Virus record (IMG/VR): IMGVR_UViG_3300020583_000224
Location: 58,713-122,712 of that record
Reading direction: 5' to 3' (one strand)
DNA from: a virus
Length of the DNA: 64,000 nucleotides
Shown: positions 2,145-60,100 of the stretch, piece after piece
Position numbering within the stretch: position 1 is the stretch's first letter
How the letters are laid out: the number at the start of each line of letters is the position of its first letter
Made by a program: the position numbers and the translations under genes
Notes under the pieces: generated by a model
Told to the model about the DNA's origin: nothing
Seen by the model: only the letters and a program-made list of their open reading frames with translations
Database searches by the model: none

Positions 2145-2558
2145 GTGAGCGACAGCGGCAGCATGCGAGGCGGCCGGGAGGTGCGGCCGTTCATCGAATC
2201 GATCTCCGGCCCGATGCCCGACACCGCCGAGTACAGTGCGATCAAGAACGGGCGCGAACGGCAGTCCAAGTCGTTCCCCGGCGCCGGCAGCGTCCGGTTC
2301 GTCGCCTACCTGTGGCGGGAGATCCAGAAGTACGCGATCATCCGGTCGCTCGAAACCGGCTTCGACGTTCCGAAACAGCACCGGCGGTTCGTCGTGGAAG
2401 GCTTCGAGGACTACGAGACCGCAGTGTCCAACTACGGGCTGGCCGTCGGCTGGCTTGTCGAACTCGTCGAACTGCACGGGCACGGCCTGTTCGATGAGGA
2501 GACGCTCGCGCAGATGGTCGACTCGCTGACGCCCGATGCTGAGGCCGATCCGCGTTAG
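2145..2558 (+). CDS. Unknown protein, lone plus-strand gene
   Basis: 137 residues from a GTG preceded by GGGAGGAGA at good spacing. It is the only plus-strand gene within the first 10 kb, so it must have its own promoter in the short gap to 2100. The sequence is mixed helical with an aromatic centre (YLWREIQKY) and an acidic C-terminus. There are no Cys pairs, membrane segments or recognisable motifs. Its stop overlaps that of the convergent DUF397 gene (TTAG). Confidence 0.8.
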   Translation: MSDSGSMRGGREVRPFIESISGPMPDTAEYSAIKNGRERQSKSFPGAGSVRFVAYLWREIQKYAIIRSLETGFDVPKQHRRFVVEGFEDYETAVSNYGLAVGWLVELVELHGHGLFDEETLAQMVDSLTPDAEADPR

Positions 2559-2761
2559 GCCTGCTCGCCGCCGATGTGGTCGAAGTCCATGCCGCGCATG
2601 CCCGCGCGGAAAGTCGCCCACTCGTCTCGGTCGAACGTGAGCACCGGTCCGTCCGGGTCCTTGCTGTCGCGGATCAGCACGAGCCCGCCGTGCTCGCCAA
2701 CCTCGACGCAAGTGGCATTGTTGGGGCACCTCGCGGCCTTGGCCCAGCGAATCTCACTCAT
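2555..2761 (-). CDS. DUF397 family protein
   Basis: 68 residues. The pattern is that of DUF397: IRWAKAARCPNN, then CVEVGE, VLIRDSKDPDGP and LTFDRDEWATF. In Streptomyces, DUF397 proteins are usually small partners of helix-turn-helix regulators and several act in pairs that influence development. Here no HTH partner is adjacent. The ATG at 2761 overlaps the stop of the upstream gene. The family assignment is by eye but the motif order is clear; the role in this element is inferred. Confidence 0.88.
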   Translation of the reverse strand: MSEIRWAKAARCPNNATCVEVGEHGGLVLIRDSKDPDGPVLTFDRDEWATFRAGMRGMDFDHIGGEQA

Positions 2762-2993
2762 CGTCATCTTCCTGTCCGTTGGCTTCGCGTACCGCCCGGT
2801 GGGTAGCCCGCGGTACGTCAATCGCGGCGCAGTGCTTGAGCCGGAACTGTTCGGCAGTCTCCCAGTCGAGACCTTCGGCGTCCTGCCGTTTCGCGTCGAT
2901 CAACATGACGAGGGCGTCGCGGACCGCGTCCAACTGCACGGGACTGAGGCCGATCAAGTCGAACGTCGCCGGATTGTGGCGCGCATAGAGCAC
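2754..2993 (-). CDS. Small unknown protein
   Basis: 79 residues from a GTG with GGAGGT five bases upstream. It is helical with an acidic tail (GQEDDDE). No known motif is visible. It is translationally coupled to the DUF397 gene, with which it overlaps by 8 nt, so the two may work together, although DUF397 partners are normally HTH proteins and no HTH is seen here. Confidence 0.75.
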   Translation of the reverse strand: MLYARHNPATFDLIGLSPVQLDAVRDALVMLIDAKRQDAEGLDWETAEQFRLKHCAAIDVPRATHRAVREANGQEDDDE

Positions 2994-3049
2994 TCAACAC
3001 CTCCAGGTCTGGGTCAATGCTAGAGGTTCGGTACGGCGAGCAGACCTTT

Positions 3050-3310
3050 TCAGTTGGAAGGTGCCGCGAGCCTGAGGATCCCGGCGGCCGCCTGCTCGAT
3101 CTCGGCGGGAGTCGCGCCGGGCGCGGTGGTGATCTGCTCCATGGCGTCGAGGAACTGCCAGCGCGCGGTCAGTGCCCGGGTGAACGCGAGACTGTCGGCC
3201 ACCGGTTCGTCGCCCGCGTCGCGTGCCTCGTTGTTGACGCGGGCGATCTCGGCCAGGCCGCTGGCCAACTCGTCGAACCACGGCGGGTCCGTGGAATCAG
3301 TGGATCTCAC
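3050..3310 (-). CDS. Small helical protein of unknown function
   Basis: 86 residues from a GTG that overlaps the upstream stop (GTGA). The sequence is an all-helical, Ala- and Glu-rich small protein with a motif WFDELASGLAEI near the N-terminus. There are no cysteines or membrane segments. The function is unknown. Confidence 0.75.
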   Translation of the reverse strand: MRSTDSTDPPWFDELASGLAEIARVNNEARDAGDEPVADSLAFTRALTARWQFLDAMEQITTAPGATPAEIEQAAAGILRLAAPSN

Positions 3311-3528
3311 GGGGCGTCCAGGGCGTTCCTGAGGTCCGCGGCGATCGTGCGCGGGTCGACGCCGGTCGTAGCGAAGCTCTCACGCCACACGTTGACCGCA
3401 GTCTCGAACAGCTCGGCGGAACCGGCCAGGCTGTACGCCTCGCGCCAGGTCGCGGCCGGAATGCCGGTCTCCTGGCTGAGGGCGCCCATCTGAATGTCGG
3501 TGACGGCCTCGGTGTTGCTGCGGGTCAT
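3307..3528 (-). CDS. Small unknown protein
   Basis: 73 residues from an ATG at 3528 with GAGGAGAA upstream; the longer frame to 3645 is a shadow of the HTH gene. The sequence includes QETGIPAATWREAYSLAG, which is helix-turn-helix-like in length but has no clear recognition helix. It is coupled to the next gene through GTGA. Confidence 0.72.
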   Translation of the reverse strand: MTRSNTEAVTDIQMGALSQETGIPAATWREAYSLAGSAELFETAVNVWRESFATTGVDPRTIAADLRNALDAP

Positions 3529-3530
3529 GG

Positions 3531-3935
3531 TCAGTTCTCCTCTTCTGTCTGCATTCCGCGCCGGGTGCACGTGGCGCATACGTCGAAGGGCACGCCGTTG
3601 GGGATGGTCGGGTCGGTCGCGGTCGGGGTTCCGGTTGTGCCGCATGCCGTCGTGACGGTGTCGTGGCCGTCGTTCCAGCGGGCACGGTGTCCGAGCCCGT
3701 CGATGATGGCGAGGATCGGGTATCGGTCGGTGCGTGTTCCGCGTCCGGGCCGGTTGGCATGCGCGGCACGGATCTCGTCTGCGGAGTACAGCGCCTTGGC
3801 GGGCCCTCGCGGGCTGCGCTGGTAGCTGACGGCTTTGACGCCCCAGCGGGACAGGGTGCTGGTCGCGGACTTGTTCGTTGCGGCGCCGATGTGCTCGGCG
3901 GCTTGCGTGATGGTCCAGAGTTCGGGTTCAGGCAT
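3531..3935 (-). CDS. HTH protein with C-terminal Cys pair
   Basis: 134 residues from an ATG with GGAAG upstream. The first 55 residues (ITQAAEHIG, then LSRWGVKAVSYQR and ALYSADEI) look like a winged or MerR-type DNA-binding domain of the kind found in phage Xis and Cox-type proteins. The C-terminal part carries CATCTRRG, one half of a possible zinc site, with a further Cys upstream. It probably binds DNA. The target is unknown. Confidence 0.75.
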   Translation of the reverse strand: MPEPELWTITQAAEHIGAATNKSATSTLSRWGVKAVSYQRSPRGPAKALYSADEIRAAHANRPGRGTRTDRYPILAIIDGLGHRARWNDGHDTVTTACGTTGTPTATDPTIPNGVPFDVCATCTRRGMQTEEEN

Positions 3936-4002
3936 GGGCTTCCGTTCGGCGGCGGGGGGACGCGGCCAGGCGCCGGATCGATCCGGCGCCCGTGCGGTCT
4001 GG

Positions 4003-22368: not shown

Positions 22369-23415
22369 ATGGACGGCGAGACCCCCACCACCCCGGCGCC
22401 CCCCACGCCGCTCGGGGGATGGTGGATCGCGGCCGTCGCCGTGATCGGCACGATGGCCGCGCTCATCGCGATCGGCGGCATGATCCTGTCTTTCCGCGCC
22501 GTCTCCCAAGAGATGACCCCTGCGTTCGGCACCCAGTGGGCATGGCTCGTACCCGTCGTCATCGACCTGTCCGTGTTCGTGTTCTCCGGCGTCGACCTCG
22601 TCCTGAACCGGCTCCGCATGAACCACCCGCTCGCCCGGTTCACCGTGTACGGTGCGACGTTCGGAACCGTCTGGCTGAACTACTCCGCCGGCGGTTCGGT
22701 CGCTGGCCGAACCGCCCACATCCTCATGCCGAGCATCTGGGTCGTGTTCGTCGAACTCATGCGGCACGTGGTTCGGCGGCTAACCGGCCTGGCCGACGGA
22801 TCCCTGCGCGAACCCGTCCCGACGGTTCGATGGATCCTCGCCCCGTGGCGAACCGTGAACCTCTGGCGGCGCATGGTCCTGTGGGGCACGAACTCCTACC
22901 CGAAGGCCCTCGCGCAGGAGAAGGGGCGCCTGGCCGCTATCGCGGTTCTGCGAACCGAACACGGGCCGTTCTGGCGCTGGCGCGTCGCGCCACTGGTTCG
23001 CCTGCAGCTCAGTCTTGGCGAACCCGTTCAGGCTCCCGAACTTGCTGCGGCCGAACCTGCCGAACCGGACCGCGAGGCCGAACCGGAGACCCCGAACCTT
23101 CCCGCAGTTCCGAACCGAACCACCGCCGCCGGTCGCGCCGAACGTTCTGCGCCGCGCCGAACCAGCCCGCGCCCGAACGGTTCCGGGAGCGTCTCCCCGC
23201 TCATGTCGCGACCCGAACGCGTCGAGATCATCCGGCAGTGGATCGACCAGGCGGGCGGCCTCGAGGCCGTGCCGCTCAGCCGAATCATGACCGAATTCGG
23301 GTGCGCCAAGTCCACCGCCTCCGGCCTGCGCGCCGAGGCAGATCCCAGCCCTGCAACCCAAAGCGCGACGACGCCTAACGAAGACGACGAAGCTGATCGA
23401 GAGGACGCCGCCTGA
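22369..23415 (+). CDS. SpdB-like (DUF2637-type) membrane protein with C-terminal HTH
   Basis: 348 residues. Four hydrophobic segments in the first 140 residues (WIAAVAVIGTMAALIAIGG, LVPVVIDLSVFVFSGV and others) match the DUF2637 layout of plasmid-spread proteins in Streptomyces. A Pro/Glu-rich linker follows. Residues 285 to 330 (EIIRQWIDQAGG, then RIMTEFGCAKSTASGL) form an HTH. Spd proteins help plasmid DNA move through mycelial cross-walls after TraB-driven transfer. The stop overlaps the ATG-like start of the translocase gene, so they form an operon. Confidence 0.85.
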   Translation: MDGETPTTPAPPTPLGGWWIAAVAVIGTMAALIAIGGMILSFRAVSQEMTPAFGTQWAWLVPVVIDLSVFVFSGVDLVLNRLRMNHPLARFTVYGATFGTVWLNYSAGGSVAGRTAHILMPSIWVVFVELMRHVVRRLTGLADGSLREPVPTVRWILAPWRTVNLWRRMVLWGTNSYPKALAQEKGRLAAIAVLRTEHGPFWRWRVAPLVRLQLSLGEPVQAPELAAAEPAEPDREAEPETPNLPAVPNRTTAAGRAERSAPRRTSPRPNGSGSVSPLMSRPERVEIIRQWIDQAGGLEAVPLSRIMTEFGCAKSTASGLRAEADPSPATQSATTPNEDDEADREDAA

Positions 23416-25631
23416 TGGCACGACACGACACGACACGCGGCTACCTCGAGGCTCAGCCGCTCCAAATTCCCGATAGCGCCCAGCAATCCACCCTTCCCGT
23501 CGCGTGGCATGGCGCGCCTCCGGCCGTCACGCAACATGGAGAACTCGCAGCTCAGGCGCCGAATCAGGCTGCTCCGCAGTCGTACTACTCGGTCAGTCCG
23601 GGCCAGATCCTCCCACACGCGCAGGCCCACGACCTCCCCTGGCACATGGCCGGACTGCTCGACCACGAACTGCCCCGCCCGAAGCCCGAATGGGTCAAAC
23701 TCCTCAACGACTACCACGTGCCCGGGGTCGCCGGGACGCTCGTGTTCACGGCGTTCGGGTGGATGGCGCACAAGGAGCCGATGCACCCGTGGATGGCCGG
23801 GCTGTTCATCGGCGTGGGCGTCACCGGGCTCGTCGGCGCCTGGTGGGCGCACCACGAGCACGGCCAGGACGCGGACCCGCACTTCACCAAGGGCCTGGCG
23901 GGTCTTGGCGTTGCCGCCATCTGCGGCGGTGCCGCCGTTGGCGCCGGGCCCACGGGGATCTCGTTCATGCTGGCGTTCGCGCTGGCGGTCGGCGCCGTCG
24001 TCGGCGTTCACCAGTACCGCGAGCACAAGCGCCACGTGAAGGCGGTGACGGCAGTCGAGTTCCACGCTGCCGTCAACCAGGGGAAGGTTCACGTGGTCGG
24101 CCCCGGGCCGGCGGCGGCAACGTCGAACATTGTGGACGGTCGGGTGCTATCCCAGGAGGAGGCGCTGCTGCACCGGGCGTTCGCGGACATGGGCATCGAG
24201 CCGATCACGCTGCGCGGGTTCGAGCGCCTCGACAAGGACGCGTTCAACGTGATCGTCGGACTGCCGGGTACTTCCACGAACGACCCGGAGACGGTGATCG
24301 GCAAGCGGGAGGTGCTCAAGTCGAACCTGCGCGCCCGGCAGATCGCGGTGGAGGCGAGCTCCGAGCACGGCCACGAGATCAAGCTCATGGTGCGCTACGG
24401 CGCGACCAACCCGCTGCTCGAGACCATCGCCTGGAAGGGCCCCAACACCGACGACGTCGCCGAGCCGATCAGGACCAGCGTCGATTTGCACGGCGACGAA
24501 GTCATGGTGCGATTCGCCAACCGGCACACCCTCTACGCGGGTAAGACCCGGCGCGGAAAGTCGGCCGGCATCGCCTCGGCCATTTGCTCAATCGGCGCCA
24601 CGAAGAATGCTCAGCTCTGGCTAATGGATTTGAAGCCGGGTCAGGTCTCGCTCGGCCCGTTCGCCGCGATGGCGGCCCAGTCGGTCGAGGGCAGGAACCA
24701 GCAGGAGTGCGTGGAAAGGGCGTCCCTGATGATTCTCGCCGCCGTCGCGGCGATGGAGGAGAACGGGCAAATCCTCAAGGACGAGCGGGAGTCGACCGGG
24801 AAGCCGGTGTACGAGTGGGATGTCAACAGGCACGGCGCGGCGATCGTCCTGGTCATCGACGAGCTTGCCTACCTGCTGCGGCTGGACCCGGAGATCTACG
24901 AGGGCTGGGTTACGATCATGCAGGTCGGGGCGGGCCTCGGCGTGTGGGTGATCGGCGCTACGCAGTCTCCGTCGGCGAAGGCCCTCGGCGGCACCACTGA
25001 CGGCTCCAGTCAGTTCGGCAACGTGTTCTGCTACCAGTGCAAGGGCGCGACCCAGGCCGGGATCATCCTGGGCCAGGGGTCGTGGAGTGAGGGTTGGAAG
25101 CCGAACGAGCGGAACCTGCCGCTGCAGGGCATGCACCTGCTGCGCACCCCGGAGCACATCCACCCCGTGGTCATGCGGAACGAGTTCGTCGAGCCGGGCG
25201 ACGCGATGGACATTGCCGACCGGTACGCCGACTCCATTCCGGCGCTGCATCCGCGGACGGCGGCGGCGGTCGATCGCGTACTGAACATGGGGCTGCCGAC
25301 GAAGAGCGGGCCGGGCCCTGGTCGCGGCGGGAAGCCGTCCGGGCCCGTCGACAGCGAGATCGTGTACACGCGCCCGTATCTCGTGCCGGAGTATCCCGAC
25401 GGCGACGTGGTCGAGGCGCACCACCGCGCGGCGTGGGAGGCCTTCAAGGAGATGGGTTCGGCAACGATCGACGAGCTCAAGGCACTCCGACTCGACCAGC
25501 ACCGTTCACGCGAGTCGTGCAAGACCGCCTTGCAGGTGTTCGTCAGGCACGGCGGCGCGACCTCAGAGATGGACGGCCGTACCGAGCGATTCCACTGCCT
25601 TGTCGGTTCCGAGCGCCGCAAGGAGGCGTGA
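23415..25631 (+). CDS. FtsK/SpoIIIE-type DNA translocase (TraB-like)
   Basis: 738 residues. Hydrophobic segments between residues 100 and 200 anchor it in the membrane. The motor domain has Walker A GKTRRGKS near residue 376, VIDELAYLLRLD as Walker B near residue 480, and GVWVIGATQSPSAKA as the sensor stretch. The C-terminal 70 residues form a winged helix (ATIDELKALRLDQHRSRESC). In actinomycete plasmids and integrative elements one such hexameric pump moves double-stranded DNA between cells. A virion-encoding element has no obvious need for it. Confidence 0.9.
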   Translation: MARHDTTRGYLEAQPLQIPDSAQQSTLPVAWHGAPPAVTQHGELAAQAPNQAAPQSYYSVSPGQILPHAQAHDLPWHMAGLLDHELPRPKPEWVKLLNDYHVPGVAGTLVFTAFGWMAHKEPMHPWMAGLFIGVGVTGLVGAWWAHHEHGQDADPHFTKGLAGLGVAAICGGAAVGAGPTGISFMLAFALAVGAVVGVHQYREHKRHVKAVTAVEFHAAVNQGKVHVVGPGPAAATSNIVDGRVLSQEEALLHRAFADMGIEPITLRGFERLDKDAFNVIVGLPGTSTNDPETVIGKREVLKSNLRARQIAVEASSEHGHEIKLMVRYGATNPLLETIAWKGPNTDDVAEPIRTSVDLHGDEVMVRFANRHTLYAGKTRRGKSAGIASAICSIGATKNAQLWLMDLKPGQVSLGPFAAMAAQSVEGRNQQECVERASLMILAAVAAMEENGQILKDERESTGKPVYEWDVNRHGAAIVLVIDELAYLLRLDPEIYEGWVTIMQVGAGLGVWVIGATQSPSAKALGGTTDGSSQFGNVFCYQCKGATQAGIILGQGSWSEGWKPNERNLPLQGMHLLRTPEHIHPVVMRNEFVEPGDAMDIADRYADSIPALHPRTAAAVDRVLNMGLPTKSGPGPGRGGKPSGPVDSEIVYTRPYLVPEYPDGDVVEAHHRAAWEAFKEMGSATIDELKALRLDQHRSRESCKTALQVFVRHGGATSEMDGRTERFHCLVGSERRKEA

Positions 25632-39450: not shown

Positions 39451-40182
39451 GTGATCGAGCGGGCACTGAAGGACGACACCCCCTGCGCCGCCACGTGGCC
39501 CATCACCGGGAAACCGTGCAGGCACCTGCCCATGCCCGGCCTCGACGTGTGCGAAGCCCATCATCCCGACGGCGACCAGCGCGTCCCCCCGCCGTCCGAA
39601 ACAGTCCGGTGCACCGGCACCAACCGGGAATCCGGGGAACGCTGCCGGCGGCCACACCGGCCCGGCGGGAAAGTCTGCAATAAGCACGGCGGCAACGCCC
39701 GTGCCCCCCGCGAAGCCGCCGACCGGCGCGTGGCGATCAAGAAGGCGAGGGAGCGGATGGAAACCTACGGCGCACCCGTCAAAATCGCTCCCGAGCACGC
39801 GCTCCTCGCAGAGATCCACCGCACCGCCGGACACGTCGCCTGGCTCGAACAGCAGGTGCACGCGCTTACCGAGGGCGAGCTCGTGTGGGGCATCACCCGC
39901 GTCAAGGAAGGCGGCGAGGACCGGGGTATCACCGAAGAGGCGGTGCCGCACGCGCTCCTGAAGCTGTACCAGGAAGAACGCGCCCACCTCGTGAAAGCCT
40001 GCGCCGCAGCGCTCCGCGCGGGCATCGAGGAGCGGCAGGTCAAGCTCGCGGAGTCCCAGGGGGCCCTTGTTGCCCAGACGATCCGGGCGATCCTCGGCGA
40101 CCTGAACCTGAACGCGACACAGAAGGCGCTCATCCCCATCATCGTCCCGCAGCGCCTGCGCGAACTCGCGCTCACCAACTGA
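39451..40182 (+). CDS. Probable terminase small subunit
   Basis: 243 residues from a GTG. The N-terminus holds Cys/His clusters (CAATWPITGKPCRH, CEAHH, RCRRPHRPGGKVCNKHGG), then a basic helix (VAIKKARERME) and a long helical C-terminus. Small terminase subunits of actinophages often begin with such clusters ending in KHGG. It lies directly before the large subunit, where a small subunit binds the packaging site and loads the motor. The assignment rests on position and build. Confidence 0.72.
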   Translation: MIERALKDDTPCAATWPITGKPCRHLPMPGLDVCEAHHPDGDQRVPPPSETVRCTGTNRESGERCRRPHRPGGKVCNKHGGNARAPREAADRRVAIKKARERMETYGAPVKIAPEHALLAEIHRTAGHVAWLEQQVHALTEGELVWGITRVKEGGEDRGITEEAVPHALLKLYQEERAHLVKACAAALRAGIEERQVKLAESQGALVAQTIRAILGDLNLNATQKALIPIIVPQRLRELALTN

Positions 40183-40195
40183 ACCAGAGGGCGGG

Positions 40196-42805
40196 ATGAC
40201 CGCCACCGTGGAGTGGGTCGAATACGCCGCCCGCGCGTTCGAAGTCGTCAGGCCCCCGGCGTGGCGCGACATCGCAAGACCCGAGCAGCTCGCACCCGAG
40301 GGCGACTGGCTCGTCTGGGCGTATATCGCCGGGCGAGGTTGTGTCGCAGGCGATACTCGAATCTACCTGCCGCTTGAGGATCGGCACGAGCGGATCGACA
40401 TCCTAGCCTCAGCGGGCCGCGCAATCACGGTCCTCGCCCTGGCATCCAGTGGACCGCGTCCGGTCGCCACGGACGGCGCCCCATTCGTCAAGGGCGTCGC
40501 GCCGCTGTACGAGGTGACGACGTCCGACGGGCACGTCATCACCGCGACGGATCGGCATCGGTTCCTTGGTCCGCAAGGATGGCTGCGACTCGCTGACGTG
40601 CGCGCCGGACAGCTTCTTGCCGCAGGAGCTCCCGTTGCACAGCAGGCAGCTTCTTGCGGCCAGTCAACGTCGCCCGCAGGTGGTCCGCGTTCGACGGGAA
40701 CACCCGCAGGTTCGCCGGATCGTTGTCCGACGTGTCTCCGTTGCGATGGTCAACGACCTCTCCCGGGAGCAGCATTCGGCCTAGTTCGCGTTCCATCACC
40801 AAGCGGTGCATCCGCACGTACCCCTTCACTGCTTGAGGGTGGTCCGGCTGGTGCTGCAGGATGTAGCCCTGCTCATCTACCGCATAGCCTCCGCGCCAGA
40901 ACGGGTTCCGCTCCGGCCGGGCTTTCGCAGGAAGACGATCTAGTCCAAGCTCGACCAGTCGATCCCGGACCGTCTCGTCGTTACAGCCCAGCGCTGCAGC
41001 CATCTCCCGGCACGACATGCCCTGCGCATGAAGGTCGCGGAGATCGCCCTCGGGGATTTGAAGACGCCTGGCTTTCGACTGCTTTGCCCGCTGCTGCGGA
41101 GTCTTCTCGCGGCCTCGAAGCTGGACGCCAGCCCGCTCAAGACGCCGCTGCACGGTCTGGTGCGACACTCCAGCGTCTTTGGCTATGCCCTTCGCCGACT
41201 CGCCAGCCTCATAGCGAGCCCGCATCTCCTCGGCGGTCAACTGCGCCAGAAACTCCTGGCGCAGCGTCACGCCGGCTTCTCGCAGTCGCCGGGCAACCGT
41301 TTGCGGTGTGGTCTGGTACTCGATCGCGATCGACCGCATCGGCTGGCCAGCCAGATACTGAGCTAGCGCCTCAGGCGGCAACGAAATCTTTGGCATGTTT
41401 GGATTGTATCGCCTGGACGCGGGTTGTGACGGTACGACCTGTAGGAACGGGCGTCTTCTACGACCTCACGGTTCCCGGTGCGGAGAACTACGCAGCCGAG
41501 GGAATGTGGCACCACAACAGCGGAAAGACGCGCTCCGCCGCCGAATGGGTCCACGAGAAGGCCACGCTCAACCCGGGCGCCCGCATTGCCCTCGTCGGCC
41601 GCACTCCGGCTGACGTCCGCGATGTCATGATCGAGGGCGAGTCGGGGATTCTTGCCTGCGCGGGCGAGGATCGCCCCATCTATGAGTCGACCAAGCGGAA
41701 GCTGACGTGGGCCAACGGGTCCACTGCGCACGCCTACTCTGCCGAAGTCCCCGACCAGCTCCGAGGCCCGCAGCACGGGTTTGCGTGGTGCGATGAGCCT
41801 GCCGCCTGGACGGATGCCCGCAAGGGCGACGTGCTCGACACGGCGTGGAACAACCTGCTGCTCGGCCTGCGTCTCGGGGCGAACCCGCAGTGCGTGGCCA
41901 CCACGACCCCGAAGCCCAACGCGCTGATCCGCACCCTGCTCGGCCGCGCCTCCACCGTCGTCAGCCGCGGCTCGACCTACGACAACCTCGCCAACCTCGC
42001 GCCCTCCTTCCGCGAGCACGTGCTCGCCACCTATGAGGGCACCAGGATCGGCCGCCAGGAGCTCCTCGGCGAACTGCTCGAGGACGTCGAAGGCGCCCTG
42101 TGGACGCTCGACCGGATCGACGCTGGCCGAGTCGCGGTCGCGCCCGACATGGTGCGCGTCGTCGTAGCCGTAGACCCGTCCGGCGGATCCGGGCCCAACA
42201 ACGACGAGCAGGGCATCGTCGTCGCTGGCCTCGGCGTTGACGGCGCCCTGTACGTGCTCGCGGACCGGTCGTGCAAGCTGTCCCCGCACGGCTGGGCGTC
42301 GAGGGCGATTGCGGCTTACCGCGAGTTCGCGGCCGACCGTATCGTGGCTGAGCGCAACTTCGGCGGCGAGATGGTCGAGTCGACGATCCTCCAGGTCGAC
42401 AAACTCGTGCCCGTCAAGGTGATCACCGCATCGCGGGGCAAGGTGCAGCGCGCCGAGCCGATCGCCGCGCTCTACGAGCACACGCCCGCCCGCGTCCACC
42501 ATGTTGGGGCGCTGCCTCAACTCGAGGACCAGCTCACCACCTGGACCCCGCAGGACGGCACGAGCCCCGACAAACTCGATGCGATGGTGTGGGCCTTGAC
42601 CGAGTTGACGGATGGCCTCGGCGCGGACGCGTGGATCGAGTACATGAAGCGCCGCGCCGAAGAGGTGGGCATGCAGCCGCGCGAGCGGGCGCCAGAGGTC
42701 CTCGAACCGCCCGAGCCGCGGCGCGATCCCGAACCTGAACCGGATGACCCGGTAGCCCGCCTGCGTGCCGCCCGTACTGCCGCACTCCGCGCCCAACGCA
42801 GATAA
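40196..42805 (+). CDS. terL: Terminase large subunit precursor containing an intein
   Basis: 869 residues as translated; removal of the intein (Cys49 to Asn441) leaves about 476 residues, the usual length. The intein splits Walker A: AGRG before it and SGKTR after it. CDEPAAW near precursor residue 527 is the Walker B region. The RNase H-like nuclease begins near 655 with VAVDPSGGSG and includes DAMVWALTEL near 796. The enzyme cuts concatemeric DNA and pumps it into the capsid; without splicing the ATPase site cannot form. The 3' extein matches the style of its neighbours, while the intein centre does not. Confidence 0.93.
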   Translation: MTATVEWVEYAARAFEVVRPPAWRDIARPEQLAPEGDWLVWAYIAGRGCVAGDTRIYLPLEDRHERIDILASAGRAITVLALASSGPRPVATDGAPFVKGVAPLYEVTTSDGHVITATDRHRFLGPQGWLRLADVRAGQLLAAGAPVAQQAASCGQSTSPAGGPRSTGTPAGSPDRCPTCLRCDGQRPLPGAAFGLVRVPSPSGASARTPSLLEGGPAGAAGCSPAHLPHSLRARTGSAPAGLSQEDDLVQARPVDPGPSRRYSPALQPSPGTTCPAHEGRGDRPRGFEDAWLSTALPAAAESSRGLEAGRQPAQDAAARSGATLQRLWLCPSPTRQPHSEPASPRRSTAPETPGAASRRLLAVAGQPFAVWSGTRSRSTASAGQPDTELAPQAATKSLACLDCIAWTRVVTVRPVGTGVFYDLTVPGAENYAAEGMWHHNSGKTRSAAEWVHEKATLNPGARIALVGRTPADVRDVMIEGESGILACAGEDRPIYESTKRKLTWANGSTAHAYSAEVPDQLRGPQHGFAWCDEPAAWTDARKGDVLDTAWNNLLLGLRLGANPQCVATTTPKPNALIRTLLGRASTVVSRGSTYDNLANLAPSFREHVLATYEGTRIGRQELLGELLEDVEGALWTLDRIDAGRVAVAPDMVRVVVAVDPSGGSGPNNDEQGIVVAGLGVDGALYVLADRSCKLSPHGWASRAIAAYREFAADRIVAERNFGGEMVESTILQVDKLVPVKVITASRGKVQRAEPIAALYEHTPARVHHVGALPQLEDQLTTWTPQDGTSPDKLDAMVWALTELTDGLGADAWIEYMKRRAEEVGMQPRERAPEVLEPPEPRRDPEPEPDDPVARLRAARTAALRAQRR
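40340..41518 (+). mobile_element. Intein in the terminase Walker A motif, with an antisense endonuclease gene in its centre
   Basis: 393 codons. Block A is CVAGDTRIYL at the start; block B is TSDGHVITATDRHRF near precursor residue 112; block F is VGTGVFYDLTVPGAENYAAEG (in part) and block G is MWHHN, with Ser442 as the first C-extein residue. These are all parts of a class 1 splicing domain. Between blocks B and F, where an endonuclease domain normally sits, the plus frame is open for about 280 residues but is low-complexity (Pro, Ala, Ser, Arg). The opposite strand there encodes an HNH endonuclease. Confidence 0.92.
40539..41396 (-). CDS. HNH homing endonuclease encoded antisense inside the intein
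   Basis: 285 residues from an ATG at 41396, with TACAAT about 12 nt upstream as a possible -10 box. The N-terminal half has several resolvase-like HTH units (QPMRSIAIEYQTTPQTVARRL, ESAKGIAKDAGVSHQTVQRRL and MSCREMAAALGCNDETVRDRL, each in part). The C-terminal part is an HNH domain: MHRLVMERELGR, then GEVVDHRNGDTSDNDPANL and NADH. It differs from its surroundings in codon use. It fills the intein endonuclease slot on the opposite strand, so it probably cuts intein-free terminase genes and drives homing of the whole intein. Confidence 0.9.
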   Translation of the reverse strand: MPKISLPPEALAQYLAGQPMRSIAIEYQTTPQTVARRLREAGVTLRQEFLAQLTAEEMRARYEAGESAKGIAKDAGVSHQTVQRRLERAGVQLRGREKTPQQRAKQSKARRLQIPEGDLRDLHAQGMSCREMAAALGCNDETVRDRLVELGLDRLPAKARPERNPFWRGGYAVDEQGYILQHQPDHPQAVKGYVRMHRLVMERELGRMLLPGEVVDHRNGDTSDNDPANLRVFPSNADHLRATLTGRKKLPAVQRELLRQEAVRRARQRVAAILADQGTDADPSR

Positions 42806-42817
42806 AGGGGGCCCGGC

Positions 42818-45800
42818 GTGCCCGATGTGATCACCGCTGCGGCCACGCCCAACACTCCCCGGATTCGGGTGCGTGAGCGCATCGGCGGCGGGTTCATGCG
42901 CCTCGCAAAGGTATTCGGCACCGCAGTCCCCGCGGACATTGCCGCAGCCGAGACCGCCGCCGGCATGGACTCGTCCACCCCGTTCTCCCCGGGCGCGCCC
43001 CTCTCGCCCTACGACGGATACTCGCGCACCCCGCGCAGCCAGAACTTCGTCCCCCAAGTCAACGTCACCACCCGGCCGCGCACCCACGAACGCGTCTCGT
43101 TCGAAACCCTCAAGGGCCTGATCGACGCCTACGACATCGCCACCATGGCGATCTGGCACCGCATCGACTCGCTGCGCTCCCTCGACTGGTCGCTCGTCGC
43201 GGCCGACGGATTCGAGGGCGACGTGGCCGACGCGGTCGCGATCGGCATGTCCGTGCTCGCCAAGCCCGACGGGCAAACCCCGTTCGGGGCGTGGCTCGCC
43301 GAATGGGTGTACGACATCCTCGCGTTCGACGCCGGCACCCTGTGGCGGATGCGGAACCGGGCCGGGCAGGTCGTCGGGCTGCGCGTGGTTGACGGCAGCC
43401 TGATCGCGCCGCTGCTCGACGACTGGGGCAACACGCCCCAGGCCCCGGCCCCGGCGTTCGTGCAATACATCAACGGCTTGCCGTGGAACTGGCTGACCAC
43501 GAACGACCTGATCTACAGGCCGTTCCGCAAGCGTCCCGACTCCCCGTACGGGCGGCCGCCGCTCGAGTCGATCCTGCTCAATGCGAACACCGACCTGCGG
43601 TTCCAGGCGTACTTCCTGCAGCGGTTCACCGAAGGCAACCTGCCCGCCGCGTTCGCCAGCGCCCCGGACTCGTGGACCCCGCAGCAGATCGAGCAGTTCC
43701 AGGAGTACTGGGACGGGTTCATCCTCGGCGACCAGTCGTTCAAGTCGCAGATCCGGTGGATCCCCCCCGGCTCGAAGATCGAGTGGAGCAACGAGAAAGA
43801 CTTCACCGACGCGTTCTCGCTGTTCATGATGCGCAAGACGCTCGCCGCATACCACGTGGTGCCGTCCGACATGGGCATCACCGACACCGTCAACAAGTCA
43901 ACCGGTGAAACCCAGCGCGACGTCCAGCACCGCATCGGCGACGTGCCCCTCGCCCGGCACGTCTCCGACATCCTCACCGCGTTCCTCCAAGACGACCTGC
44001 ACCTGCCCGTCAAGCACCAGTTCGACTTCGGCGAGGAACAAGACGACCGGCTCCAGTTGGCGCAAGCCGACGACATCTACATCAAGAACGGCACCGTCTC
44101 CAACTCCGACATCCGGGAACTGCGGTTCGGCCTCTCGGAGCCCGAAGGCAAGCGGGTCCCGCGGTTCGTCTACTCCAACCGCGGCGGACCCATCCCACTG
44201 TCTGCGCTCGAAGCCGTGGCGGGGCCGATCGACTTCGAATCCGGCGCCCCGCAGCCTGGCGCGCCGCTGCCGCACACCGTGTTCCAGCCCGTCGAAGGCG
44301 TCGAAGGCAACCCGCCGACCCCGCGTCCGCCGCTCGCGGTCGAGCAGTACGGTCCGGGCGCGCTGCCCGTCGCGGCACCGCAGTCCGTGCCCGCGCTGCC
44401 GGTTGCACCCGTGCAGGCCGAATTGAAGGCGGCCCCGGTCGCGAAGGACGGGCCTACTGCGGGAATCACGGCAGCGACCGGGATCACGTCCTACGACCTC
44501 GTCGGACGCCACGACGACGAAGACGACGACGAGGACGAGGCTGTCGCCAAGGAACTCGCCGCATACCGGCGTTTCGCCAAGGCCCGGCGCCGCGACGGCA
44601 GATGGCGCGACTTCCAGTTCCAGGCCGTAGACGCCGCCACCGCGCGCAGCCTCAACGAGGCCGGCCACCAGTCCGTGCTCGCCAAGCAGTCCGGCATCCC
44701 GGGACTGACCAAGCGCTCCGGCATGATCTCGCTCGACCTGCCCGCAGGCCTCGTGCCGACCGTACCGGGCGGCGTGAACGACCACCATGTGACCGTCGTG
44801 TACCTCGGTCCGGACGTGGCGAATGAAGAGTTCGACACCGCCTGCGACCGCGCCGAAGCCGCGGCAGCAGCCTGCCCCGGACCGCTCACCGGCACCATCG
44901 CAGGGATCGACACGTTCCCGCCGTCCAGCGGCAGCGATGGCAAGATTCCCGCGTTTGTGCCCGTCACGCTGCCCGGCGTCGAGCAGGTACGCGCGTCGCT
45001 CGAAGACCTCTCAGCGAGTGAGCACACCGACTACCACCCGCACGTGACGCTCGCATACCTCGACGAAGGCGACCCGCTGCCGGACCCCGTGCCGCCGACG
45101 CTCGTCACCTTCACCCACCTTACTGTGCACCGCGGCGACGAGACCCGCAGCTTCCCGCTCGGGCCGCGCATGCTCGGCCTGGCGAAGGCCGCGGCGGGAA
45201 GTGAACCGGGCCCAAAAGCTGACGCCTCCGCCAAGGAGGCGTCCAGCCACTGGCCCGGATGGGACTACGACGAGACCGCCGCAGACCACTGGGCACGGAA
45301 ACTCGCCGACGGCTACGTTGCCGCGTTGAGCGTCGCCCGGGCGCAGCGGATCGCGGCCAGCTTCCTCGCCGCGCACCCCGGCGACGGCGAGAAGCACACC
45401 AAGGCCGAAACCGCCGCGATCGCCGCAGCGCTACTCGCAGCGGCCCTCGCGCACCTCGAGGACCAAAACCTCGACCTCACCAGCGCCGCCACCGCAACAC
45501 TCCAAGGCCTCTACACCGACGCCTACCTGATCGGCGCCGCCAGCGGCAACGCAGTCATCGACGGCGGCAAGCCCGTGCTCACAGGCTGGTCGCCAGGCAA
45601 GACCGACGAAGCGCACGGGCTCATCGAGGCGCTCGCGCTCGGCACCGGCCTGTCCGCGCTGCTGCGGCGCGCGCCCGAAACCGCGGCGGCCATGTCCAGC
45701 ACGCGCATGGCCGTGCTCGCCAGCGCGCTCGCGGCAGGCGCGGCAGCCGGACAATCAGCCGCGATCATCGCAGGGTCGCTCATCGCAGTACTCAAGGCGG

Positions 45801-46045
45801 GGTGGCGGTCGCTGACCGCTGCCATCACCGAAGTCACCAGCGCATCCAGCGCAGGCGCGAGCGACGCCTACCAGAAGCGCGGCATCACCCTCTACGAGTG
45901 GGCCCTCGACCCCAGCGTCAACAACTGTCCGATCTGCATAACGAACGCCAACTCGGCGCCCCGAAAGTTCGGGCAGAAATGGCCCAGCGGCCAGGCCGCC
46001 CCGCCAATCCACGGCCGCTGCCGCTGCGCGCTCGTCCCGGCCTAG
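42818..46045 (+). CDS. Portal protein fused to 2H-phosphoesterase and MuF-like domains
   Basis: 1075 residues from a GTG with AAAGGGGG upstream. Residues 80 to 470 are a portal: FVQYINGLPWNWLT, LIYRPFRKRPDSPYG, AYHVVPSDMGITD and RDVQHRIGDV are typical. Residues 635 to 775 match the 2H phosphoesterase fold, with HVTVVYLG at 657 and HVTLAYLD at 742 as the two HxT motifs. Residues 860 to 1075 are MuF-like and end in CPICITN and HGRCRC. The portal forms the DNA gate; MuF assists head assembly and can be injected. The central 2H domain is unexpected. Confidence 0.9.
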   Translation: MPDVITAAATPNTPRIRVRERIGGGFMRLAKVFGTAVPADIAAAETAAGMDSSTPFSPGAPLSPYDGYSRTPRSQNFVPQVNVTTRPRTHERVSFETLKGLIDAYDIATMAIWHRIDSLRSLDWSLVAADGFEGDVADAVAIGMSVLAKPDGQTPFGAWLAEWVYDILAFDAGTLWRMRNRAGQVVGLRVVDGSLIAPLLDDWGNTPQAPAPAFVQYINGLPWNWLTTNDLIYRPFRKRPDSPYGRPPLESILLNANTDLRFQAYFLQRFTEGNLPAAFASAPDSWTPQQIEQFQEYWDGFILGDQSFKSQIRWIPPGSKIEWSNEKDFTDAFSLFMMRKTLAAYHVVPSDMGITDTVNKSTGETQRDVQHRIGDVPLARHVSDILTAFLQDDLHLPVKHQFDFGEEQDDRLQLAQADDIYIKNGTVSNSDIRELRFGLSEPEGKRVPRFVYSNRGGPIPLSALEAVAGPIDFESGAPQPGAPLPHTVFQPVEGVEGNPPTPRPPLAVEQYGPGALPVAAPQSVPALPVAPVQAELKAAPVAKDGPTAGITAATGITSYDLVGRHDDEDDDEDEAVAKELAAYRRFAKARRRDGRWRDFQFQAVDAATARSLNEAGHQSVLAKQSGIPGLTKRSGMISLDLPAGLVPTVPGGVNDHHVTVVYLGPDVANEEFDTACDRAEAAAAACPGPLTGTIAGIDTFPPSSGSDGKIPAFVPVTLPGVEQVRASLEDLSASEHTDYHPHVTLAYLDEGDPLPDPVPPTLVTFTHLTVHRGDETRSFPLGPRMLGLAKAAAGSEPGPKADASAKEASSHWPGWDYDETAADHWARKLADGYVAALSVARAQRIAASFLAAHPGDGEKHTKAETAAIAAALLAAALAHLEDQNLDLTSAATATLQGLYTDAYLIGAASGNAVIDGGKPVLTGWSPGKTDEAHGLIEALALGTGLSALLRRAPETAAAMSSTRMAVLASALAAGAAAGQSAAIIAGSLIAVLKAGWRSLTAAITEVTSASSAGASDAYQKRGITLYEWALDPSVNNCPICITNANSAPRKFGQKWPSGQAAPPIHGRCRCALVPA

Positions 46046-57126: not shown

Positions 57127-60100
57127 GTGTCGGAGTCCAGCGTCACCGTCCTGCTGATGCTCGAGGCGATCGACAAGGCGTCGCAGATCATCGAGGGGAT
57201 TTCGGGGAAGCTCGAGGGTCTCGGCCAGAAGGCTCAGGACGCTGCGGCGAAGGCGTCGATGACCGGCGAGGAGCTTGAGGCCGCGCAGGTCAAGGCCGAG
57301 GCTGCGGCGAACGCCTATACGGCCGCCGTGGCGGAGCAGGACGCTGCGCAGGCGCGTCTGCTGGAGTCGACGCAGGCGGTGCGTGAGGCGCAGACTGCGG
57401 CGGCGGAGTCGGCGGCGCGCCTGGCCGAGGCCGACGCGGCGGTGGCGTCGGGGGTGGAGGAGGCGGCGAACGCCGCGCAGGTCTCGTATGCGGATATCGC
57501 GGCGGCTGCGGACGCTTCGGCGGCGGCGGTGAAGACCGCGATCGCCGAGCAGACGGTGGCGCTCGACGGGCTCAGCGCCGCGCAGAAGGAGGCTGCGGCG
57601 CGGGCGGACGAGTCGGCGGCGGCGCAGGACGCGGCGAACACGTCGGTGGACGCGAGCGGCGGCCTGATGAAGGGCGCCGCGATGGGCGCCGCGGTGACGG
57701 CTGCCGCGGTCGCGGGGATCGGCTACGAGTCGATCAAGGCTGCGGGCAACTTCCAGTCGCTGACCGAGCATCTGGTGACGGACGCGGGCGAGTCGCAGGC
57801 GAATCTCGCGAAGGTGCAGGCGGGGATCTTGTCGATCTCCACGGCGACGGGCACGTCGAGCACCGAACTGGTCAACGGCATGTACCACATCGAATCAGCG
57901 GGTTTCCATGGTGCCGCCGGTTTGACGATGCTGAAGACCGCCGCCGAGGGCGCGAAGGTGGGCAACGCCGACCTCGACACGGTCAGCAAGGCCCTGGTCG
58001 GGTCGATGAACGCCTACGGGATGTCCGCTGGCCAGTCGACGTCGATGATGAACCAGCTGATCGCGACGGTCGGCGCGGGCGACATGCGCATGGAGGACCT
58101 TGCCTCCTCGATGTCGTCGGTGACCGCTTCGGCCGCCGCCGCGCACATCCAGTTCTCACAGGTCGCGGGCGCCATCGCGACGATGACCGCGCAGGGCATG
58201 AGCGCGAATCAGGCGACCCAGGATTTGAACCACACGATCGGCGCGATGTCGAACCCCAACGCCGTGCAGATCAAGGAAATGCAGGCGATGGGCCTGTCGT
58301 CGAACCAGGTCGCGTCGGATCTGGGAAAGCAGGGGCTCACCGGCACGTTCCAGGAACTGACGGCCGCGGTGGCGAAGCACGTGCAGGGCGGGCAGGTCCT
58401 GATCTCGACTTTCCAGTCGAGCCAGCAGGCCGCGGCCGACGCCAACGTGATGATCAAGTCGATGCCGTCGTCGCTGCAGAAGCTCGCCGACGCGTACCTC
58501 GCGGGCAGTGTCACACAGAAGCAGTGGACTACCACGCTGCAGGGGCTGCCGCCGATCCAGGCGAAGATGATGGGCAGTTTCGCGACCCTCGCCGACAAGA
58601 CGCACGCGTTCAACGCGCAACTGACTTCCGGCTCGCCCGCCGCGCAGACGTACAACGCGGCGATGTCGAAGATGATGGGCGGCACCGTCGGCCTGAACAC
58701 CGCGTTGATGCTGACGGGCACGCACGCGGCGACGTTCTCGCAGAACGTCGCGACCGTGCAGAAGGCCGCGGACTCGAGCAGCGGCAGTGTCGCGAACTGG
58801 GCTGCGATCCAGGGCACGATGAACCAGAAGCTGGATCAGCTGAAGGCGGGTGTCCAGGCGGCTGCGATCGGCCTGGGCACGGCGCTGATCCCGATGGTCA
58901 CGAAGATCCTCGACCTCATCATGAAGATCGTGACGCCGATCGTGGACTGGATCGACCACAACCAGAAGCTCGCCGCGATGATCCTGCTCGTCGTCGGGGC
59001 GATCGCGACCGCCATCACCGTGTTCGTGATGGCCGCGAAGGTGATCGAGGCCATCTCGGCCGCGATCAAGGTGTTCCAGGTCGCACTGGCGGGCCTCGAG
59101 TTCAACCCGGTGATCCTGGCGATCACCGCGATCGCGATCGTCGCCCTGCTGATCATCACGCACTGGTCGACGGTCAAGCGGTGGATGTCCGACTTCTGGG
59201 ACTGGCTGAAGCGGATGTTCTCCGACGCGGTCACGTTCGTCAAAAGCCACGTGCAGGAGATCGCCGCGGGCCTGGTGCTGCTGCTCGGCCCGATCGGGCT
59301 GATGATCGCCGCCGTGCTGGAGATCGCCACGCATTGGCGGCAGGTCGAGGCGGTCCTCAAGGAAGTCTGGAACTGGATGAAGGGCGCCGCCAAGGACGTC
59401 GCCGACTTCGTCTCCGGGGCTTTCAGGGCGTCCGTGGCGTTCGTGACCGGCCTGTGGAAGGGCTTCGTCAACGACCTGAAGGCCCTCTGGGGTCTGCTGA
59501 AGGACGCGTGGAACTCGACCGGCGGGAAGCTGGTCACCGATATCGCGCACGCCTGGGACGAGGTGTCCGCGGCGTTCGACAAGGAATGGTCGAAGATCAC
59601 CTCGGATCTGTCGTCGATCTGGGGTTCGATCGTGCAGATCTGGAACGCGACCGGGGGCGCGCTGATCTCCGCGATCGAGCAGGCCACTCGGGACGTCGTC
59701 GAGTTCCTCGAGTCGCACTGGTCGCAAATCAAGGGGATCATCCAGGGCGCGTTGCAGCCGCTCGTCACGATCGTGCGCGCCGCGTGGGACTTCATCAAGG
59801 GCGTGTTCACGGCGGCGTTCGGCTTCATCCGCGGGATCGTGGTCAGCCAGTGGGACGTCATCAAGGGCGTCTTCGACGCCGCATGGGCGTTGATCCGCGG
59901 CGTCGTGCAGGTCGGCTGGGATCTGATCACCGGGATCTTCACTGCCGCCTGGGCCGTGGTCTCCGGGATCGTCAAGGCCGGCTGGGACTTCGTGTCCGGG
60001 ATCTTCCATGCGGCGGCCGACGTGATCGTCGGCGTGATCAAGGCCCTGTGGGACGCGGTCACCACGACGATCAACGTCGCGCTCGACGTGATCAAGGGTG

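Follow-up and report, generated by a model that had tools for sequence, protein, structure and literature searches.

Introduction

By the usual description, a mobile intein contains its homing endonuclease as part of the spliced polypeptide. The dCTP deaminase of cyanophage CL131 contains an intein with HintN and HNH_3 domains, whose excision has been shown in Escherichia coli (PMC6293099), and in the terminase large subunit (TerL) of cyanophage Mic1 the endonuclease domain has been placed within a large intein, with no antisense gene described (PMC7156551). Other arrangements are the ShiLan domain of mycobacteriophage methylases, a stop-free insert that hides an out-of-frame HNH gene and shows a homing-like spread (PMC11855218), and the antisense homing endonuclease genes of nuclear ribosomal DNA group I introns, e.g., Dsq.L2066 (PMC9548176).

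Here we describe a TerL intein whose putative homing endonuclease, an HNH protein with helix-turn-helix (HTH) units, is encoded on the opposite strand of the same DNA. It lies in a window of 64,000 nucleotides (the whole stretch analysed, positions 58,713 to 122,712 of the 122,712-base IMG/VR virus record IMGVR_UViG_3300020583_000224). Like the CL131 intein, it has a HINT domain that brackets a region with an HNH_3 endonuclease in a phage host protein, but the endonuclease, which in CL131 belongs to the same polypeptide and strand, is here a separate protein from the opposite strand. With Mic1 it shares the insertion in the ATPase domain of the terminase large subunit. The ShiLan HNH protein is a distant relative of the one in the window (47-49% identity over 78 amino acids, aa); however, ShiLan has no intein or splicing domain, whereas the window locus has an antisense frame and the full intein blocks and is not a ShiLan domain. 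As in Dsq.L2066, where the gene apparently has its own transcript, the endonuclease gene is reversed relative to a self-splicing host element, but the Dsq.L2066 host is an rRNA intron, in which no open protein frame is needed opposite the gene, and its enzyme is of the eukaryotic His-Cys type.

An antisense, opposite-strand or reversed endonuclease gene in an intein was found in no paper of the literature searched, which excluded bioRxiv 10.1101/2025.01.02.630785 and Gorbalenya 1998 ('Non-canonical inteins'). The first-pass annotation of this DNA had likewise known of no described antisense arrangement, which agrees with the literature searched, save for one preprint outside its coverage.

Results

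An intein splits the Walker A motif of the terminase

The plus strand at 40196-42805 encodes a TerL precursor of 869 aa, with Pfam matches to Terminase_6N (E 1.6e-16), Terminase_6C (2.8e-12) and Intein_splicing (2.7e-10). Direct reading of the junctions, YIAGRG|CVAGDTRIYLP...NYAAEGMWHHN|SGKTRSAAE (bars mark the insertion points), together with a predicted HINT fold, places an intein of 393 aa at 40340-41518 on the same strand, in the Walker A motif between AGRG and SGKTR. It runs from the codon of Cys1 (40340-40342) to that of Asn393 (41516-41518) and is followed by Ser (AGC, 41519-41521, plus strand) as the +1 extein nucleophile. These residues (Cys1 ... His-His-Asn|Ser) mark the insert as a class 1 intein, and splicing is predicted to leave AGRGSGKTR in TerL, which is a normal Walker A motif. 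Of the 80 TerL proteins in viral contigs that are closest to the window's (identity 47-79%, and 66-79% for about the first dozen), none has an insert at this site; the element is sporadically distributed.

The N-terminal splicing domain (residues 1-98; 40340-40633, plus strand) holds block A and block B, the latter with the motif TDRH, and is modelled with a predicted local distance difference test (pLDDT) score of 94-98 over residues 1-90 and 83 over 91-100. The C-terminal splicing domain (residues 352-393; 41393-41518, plus strand) holds block F, DLTVPGAENYAAEG, and block G, WHHN, with a pLDDT of 96-98 over 361-393. AlphaFold, run on an alignment of 51 sequences, confidently predicts a HINT fold formed by residues 1-98 and about 352-393, and the best Foldseek matches in the PDB were the Ssp DnaB mini-intein (nearest, E 5.7e-7) and the Mtu RecA mini-intein. 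Across 53 related inteins, defined below, Cys1, Gly64, His73, Tyr384, Gly388 and Asn393 are invariant, His392 is kept in more than 90%, and the +1 residue is Ser, Thr or Cys in 53/53. The insert therefore has a nucleophile at residue 1, a TxxH block B, a C-terminal His-Asn, a +1 Ser, a HINT fold and insert-free homologues, as an intein should.

Between the two splicing domains runs a stop-free sense linker (about residues 101-345; 40640-41374, plus strand) that is mostly predicted to be disordered: 213 of the 393 intein residues have a pLDDT below 50, nearly all of them within 101-347. The endonuclease domain that a large canonical intein holds between blocks B and F of the same polypeptide was thus not found here, where the linker is predicted to be disordered, and with its confidently predicted halves the sense product resembles a mini-intein with a long disordered loop.

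The opposite strand encodes an HTH-HNH endonuclease

The minus strand carries, at 40539-41396, a gene for an HTH-HNH endonuclease of 285 aa (ATG at 41396, stop codon 40539-40541), with Pfam matches to HNH_3 and HTH families and with purifying selection across its family. Its DNA-binding region (aa 8-150; 40947-41375, minus strand) consists of HTH units with matches to HTH_58, HTH_38, HTH_7 and HTH_23, and its nuclease domain (aa 164-246; 40659-40907, minus strand) includes the HNH_3 match at aa 195-236 (E 1.5e-11). In this catalytic region H197, H217, N225, N229 and H239 are invariant in the 53 relatives. In the model (pLDDT 85.7) the HTH matches fall in a string of helices and the HNH region is well predicted, so that an HNH motif is joined to DNA-binding modules, the combination by which an HNH homing endonuclease is recognised.

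HNH codon positions 1/2/3 face sense positions 1/3/2. The first-pass annotation had placed a plus-strand intein at 40340-41518 and a minus-strand HNH protein with several HTH units opposite it, and both placements hold, by the Pfam matches and the invariant residues above. It had also put the HNH gene exactly between blocks B and F, and this has to be corrected, as the stop codon of the HNH gene lies at intein residue 67 and the 3′ end of the gene crosses block B, including the codon of the invariant His73 (40556-40558). In many relatives the overlap spans almost the whole N-terminal splicing domain. An intron was also considered as the inserted element, but positions 40000-41900 gave no Rfam match at E <= 1 on either strand, and so no sign of a group I or group II ribozyme.

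The arrangement recurs in phages and prophages

Single-sequence searches with the window HNH protein in viral and genome contigs gave no match, nor did blastn of the window intein against phages. By tblastn against phage records, the window HNH protein matched Pectobacterium phage Ymer and its relatives, in which the HNH gene is antisense to a 2265-nt gene between a terminase gene and the portal. This 2265-nt gene is itself a TerL gene with an intein (FVAGFG|CVHPHTKVY...GHIHHN|TGKSQ). Pseudoalteromonas phage PHS3 has the same layout, and its record has the HNH gene on the other strand and a TerL that starts after the intein. Cultured carriers include phages of Pectobacterium, Dickeya and Pseudoalteromonas.

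An alignment of the window, Ymer and PHS3 HNH proteins served as the query of a wider search. In 73/73 IMG/VR loci found in this way the HNH gene is antisense inside a long open frame and in the same register, at 32-69% G+C. These loci, the named phages and the window form 53 clusters at 90% identity, and the 53 sense proteins have Pfam matches to Intein_splicing (33), Terminase_3 (24) and Terminase_6N (19), with Cys1 and the terminal Asn kept in every one. The element is also found in bacterial genomes, i.e., Enterobacter cloacae DSM 26481, an Acinetobacter sp., four metagenome-assembled genomes and E. coli MEI003, for which E. coli ET729 is an empty-site counterpart; prophages of E. coli and Enterobacter are thus among the carriers.

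In order to avoid circularity, a reverse search used the C-terminus of the intein and the first TerL residues as the query and ignored the HNH protein. An antisense HNH profile match was present in 78 of 80 loci, the other two being too short to assess, and none of the 80 has an in-frame sense-strand endonuclease. Fifteen of the contigs had also come up in the HNH search, so that the two viral searches together cover about 138 contigs. The first-pass annotation had proposed to look for other antisense pairs, and such pairs are now known from well over a hundred contigs of phages and prophages; a sense-strand endonuclease in homologous inteins, which it had named as evidence to the contrary, did not appear.

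Three further candidates were set aside: the HNH homologues of Streptomyces phage GiJojo are freestanding and not antisense, the HNH match of Gordonia GAL1 lies on the same strand as its gene, and the HNH gene of L172 (30% identity) is not nested.

Several records show unusual features in the sense gene. In RefSeq, the intein-bearing TerL of E. coli MEI003 (L173 3084-4388, NZ_CP071263.1) is a pseudogene without N-terminus and the HNH protein, WP_077828224.1, a separate gene; the translation of this TerL has a repeated stretch in its C-terminal part (VVVNSSNPPVKDRVNSMNAMFCNANGERR). The TerL of L094 (1800-5090, minus) appears to have a second intein (CLAAGTMVATSGG...LVAN|C) beside the HNH-bearing one, and the sense open reading frames of L122 and L161 are likewise unusually long.

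Both strands are kept as coding sequence

To obtain an expectation for stop codons, each HNH protein was recoded according to the codon usage found in the 3′ part of its own TerL gene. In the sense register, stops are absent in 53/53 genes, against 5.6 expected per gene, and the other two antisense frames of the same genes contain 418 and 472. For the window gene alone, 0 plus-frame stops stand against 5.5 expected (P = 0.0005), in line with the first-pass reading of a plus frame open across the HNH gene.

Divergence by codon position was measured in 15 non-overlapping pairs. Opposite the linker (2692 codons), HNH position 3, which is sense position 2, diverged at 0.409 and positions 1 and 2 at 0.194 and 0.162, indicating that the HNH protein is constrained and the linker residues are not. 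Over the 1112 codons in which the HNH gene lies opposite the N-terminal splicing domain, all three positions diverged little and at similar rates (0.133/0.174/0.166), the pattern to be expected under constraint on both proteins. The possibility raised by the first-pass annotation that the HNH frame is conserved no better than by chance is thus not borne out.

Some copies have lost part of the pair. L214 has a shortened intein of 207 aa and an HNH gene without its N-terminus, L234 an intein of 146 aa with an HNH remnant, and L237 and L245 inteins of 135 and 152 aa in which the antisense frame is full of stops and the sense frame open. By sequence, these four resemble the mini-inteins in which a homing cycle is expected to end, and they appear to be intermediates of loss.

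These data bear on the idea that the locus is a degenerate former homing unit, in which the intein still splices and the HNH frame is a relic held open by an indel-intolerant sense frame. Indels in the overlap would break TerL, so that an antisense frame could persist passively, and decayed copies do exist. However, the two- to 2.5-fold more frequent change at HNH third positions than at first and second positions opposite the linker indicates active constraint on the HNH protein, the stops of L237 and L245 show that an open sense frame alone does not hold the antisense frame open, and the window HNH protein retains its catalytic-region residues. We regard a relic as improbable, though with less assurance for the window copy taken alone.

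The two parts probably travel together between host genes

The closest relatives of the window HNH protein are those of L093 and L094 (47-49% identical), and the splicing domain is closest to that of L095 (about 59% identical), whose host is by Pfam a P-loop ATPase and not a terminase; the host in L096 is an SNF2-like helicase. Most insertion points read G|[S/T/C]GK[ST], with GK|[TS] in L149 and L156 and D|TGLGKS in L096. Distances between HNH proteins correlate with those between splicing domains (rho 0.68), each correlates with host-protein distances at 0.41, and the partial correlation given the host is 0.62 (permutation p 0.001); some host-protein distances are inflated by second inteins. 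The HNH and splicing-domain trees have 17 well supported splits in common. A comparison of how well the flanks are conserved close to and farther from the insertion site gave no clear signal of co-conversion.

The HNH protein might instead be a packaging-associated nuclease that works with the terminase and came to be nested by happenstance. HNH endonucleases that aid terminases in DNA packaging are mentioned in PMC11855218, and the host gene is usually TerL. On the other hand, the same HNH gene sits in an SNF2-like helicase and in another P-loop ATPase, close TerL relatives lack the intein and the HNH gene together, and the multiple HTH units suggest a sequence-specific binder, so that we give this explanation little credence.

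Candidate signals for expression of the HNH gene

A Shine-Dalgarno match of at least 5 bases precedes the first in-frame HNH ATG in 20/53 genes and in 2/106 control frames (p 2e-9). The window gene has a promoter-like match in its place: a consensus scan found one, with 0.2 expected, a sigma-70-like site GTCACA-16-TACAAT (41403-41430, minus strand) whose end lies 6 nt ahead of the ATG. In the related loci L093 and L094, TATCAT occurs at the same spacing. This site would be compatible with a leaderless HNH mRNA, for which it is weak evidence.

A minus-strand promoter-like site and a head-on overlap with a gene of the structural region would also suit an antisense gene that mainly regulates the terminase, its transcript acting as an antisense RNA and the HNH protein being secondary, a role that could coexist with homing. 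Conservation at the level of the HNH protein and Shine-Dalgarno sites that show selected translation speak against it, and as the main function of the gene we judge regulation very unlikely. Chance or artefact, i.e., an antisense open frame of high-G+C DNA with incidental HNH similarity or a misassembled contig, can be dismissed almost outright, since, common as such frames are in G+C-rich DNA and numerous as they are in this region of the window, homologous HNH genes recur in the same register in more than 100 contigs down to 32% G+C and in complete genomes of cultured phages and E. coli, with 0 stops versus 5.6 expected per gene and a codon-position pattern of selection.

A second class in MuF genes

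A plasmid search identified, on plasmid III of Ca. Promineifilum breve, an intein in a MuF-type minor head protein with an antisense HTH protein bearing an MTES_1575/DUF559-like nuclease; the class occurs in phages of Chloroflexota, too. Its IMG/VR relatives are nested antisense in 8/8 cases (L255, with 2300-3997 on the minus and 2426-3319 on the plus strand, and L259-L269 belong to this class), and by tblastn the nuclease matched 125 GenBank phage records, including Salmonella and Gordonia phages; common laboratory phages are among the carriers of this class. The three read in detail, Gordonia Vivi2, Salmonella SE1 and Idiomarinaceae 1N2-2, are nested antisense as well.

In the MuF class, position 1 of the homing endonuclease gene faces sense position 3, a register different from that of the HNH class. 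The sense frame has 0 stops against 1.2-14.7 expected, and 3/10 genes are not significant alone. The different nuclease, host gene and register together indicate a separate origin, and the HTH part may be common to both classes. The preprint bioRxiv 10.1101/2025.01.02.630785 on actinobacteriophage inteins, with 'Non-Canonical Architecture' in its title (reference 7 of the ShiLan paper), reportedly surveyed the inteins of PhagesDB; as the MuF class is present in Gordonia phages, some of the present finding may already be described there.

Other genes in the window

Downstream of TerL, positions 42818-46045 encode a portal protein of 1075 aa fused to a 2′-5′ RNA ligase-like (2H phosphoesterase) domain, with a weak MuF-like match, an unusual fusion. 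At 22369-25628 a DUF2637 protein adjoins an FtsK/SpoIIIE-like protein, which may hint at an actinobacterial host.

Discussion

The intein and the antisense HNH gene very probably form a composite homing element whose splicing and cutting functions are encoded on opposite strands of one stretch of DNA. That the two make one unit was the central proposal of the first-pass annotation, and it is supported by their co-occurrence in every assessable relative, their correlated distances and their presence in hosts other than the terminase.

We infer the following course. TerL would be translated with the intein in its P-loop and the HINT domain would excise itself, restoring the terminase, while the HNH protein would be translated separately from its own transcript of the opposite strand. 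This protein would cut P-loop alleles that lack the intein, be it in a co-infecting phage or in a resident prophage, and the element would be copied in whole during repair of the cut allele. Since it is part of an essential gene, the plus frame across the HNH gene must stay open, and therefore the two genes are entangled; for the same reason frameshifts in the HNH gene are barred. In many copies removal of the HNH gene would damage the splicing domain, and reversal would let the HNH protein be made on a schedule apart from the host gene.

Some observations weigh against this reading. The PDB fold search with the HNH model gave no strong match, I-HmuI ranking fifth with E 0.17, and the promoter-like site matches the consensus at only 9/12 positions. 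Fourteen HNH splits are contradicted by a split of the splicing-domain tree, which means either occasional recombination between the two parts or noise in the trees. Most of the intein-free relatives compared (L002-L017) have Ala at +1 versus Ser (AGC) in the window, a difference that could limit the recipients or point to co-conversion of the flank. From the model, moreover, the long unstructured linker could slow splicing.

On balance we lean towards antisense endonucleases being a general, repeatedly evolved architecture of mobile inteins, with at least two classes (TerL/HNH and MuF/MTES_1575-like) that arose separately in different registers, because reversal gives the endonuclease its own expression schedule while its overlap with the splicing domain holds the two genes together.

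The arrangement exposes an annotation problem, as with the TerL genes recorded as a pseudogene in MEI003 and as starting after the intein in PHS3. It also offers natural, repeated cases in which about 110-400 codons are read in antisense as well, within genes that are forced to stay open, and in which the constraint on two strands can be measured. For the biology of inteins, it means that the endonuclease is made as a protein of its own, encoded on the complementary strand of the intein DNA, so that one stretch repeatedly encodes two proteins of one selfish element, and it makes testable both the timing of homing and the way in which a selfish element holds its parts together.

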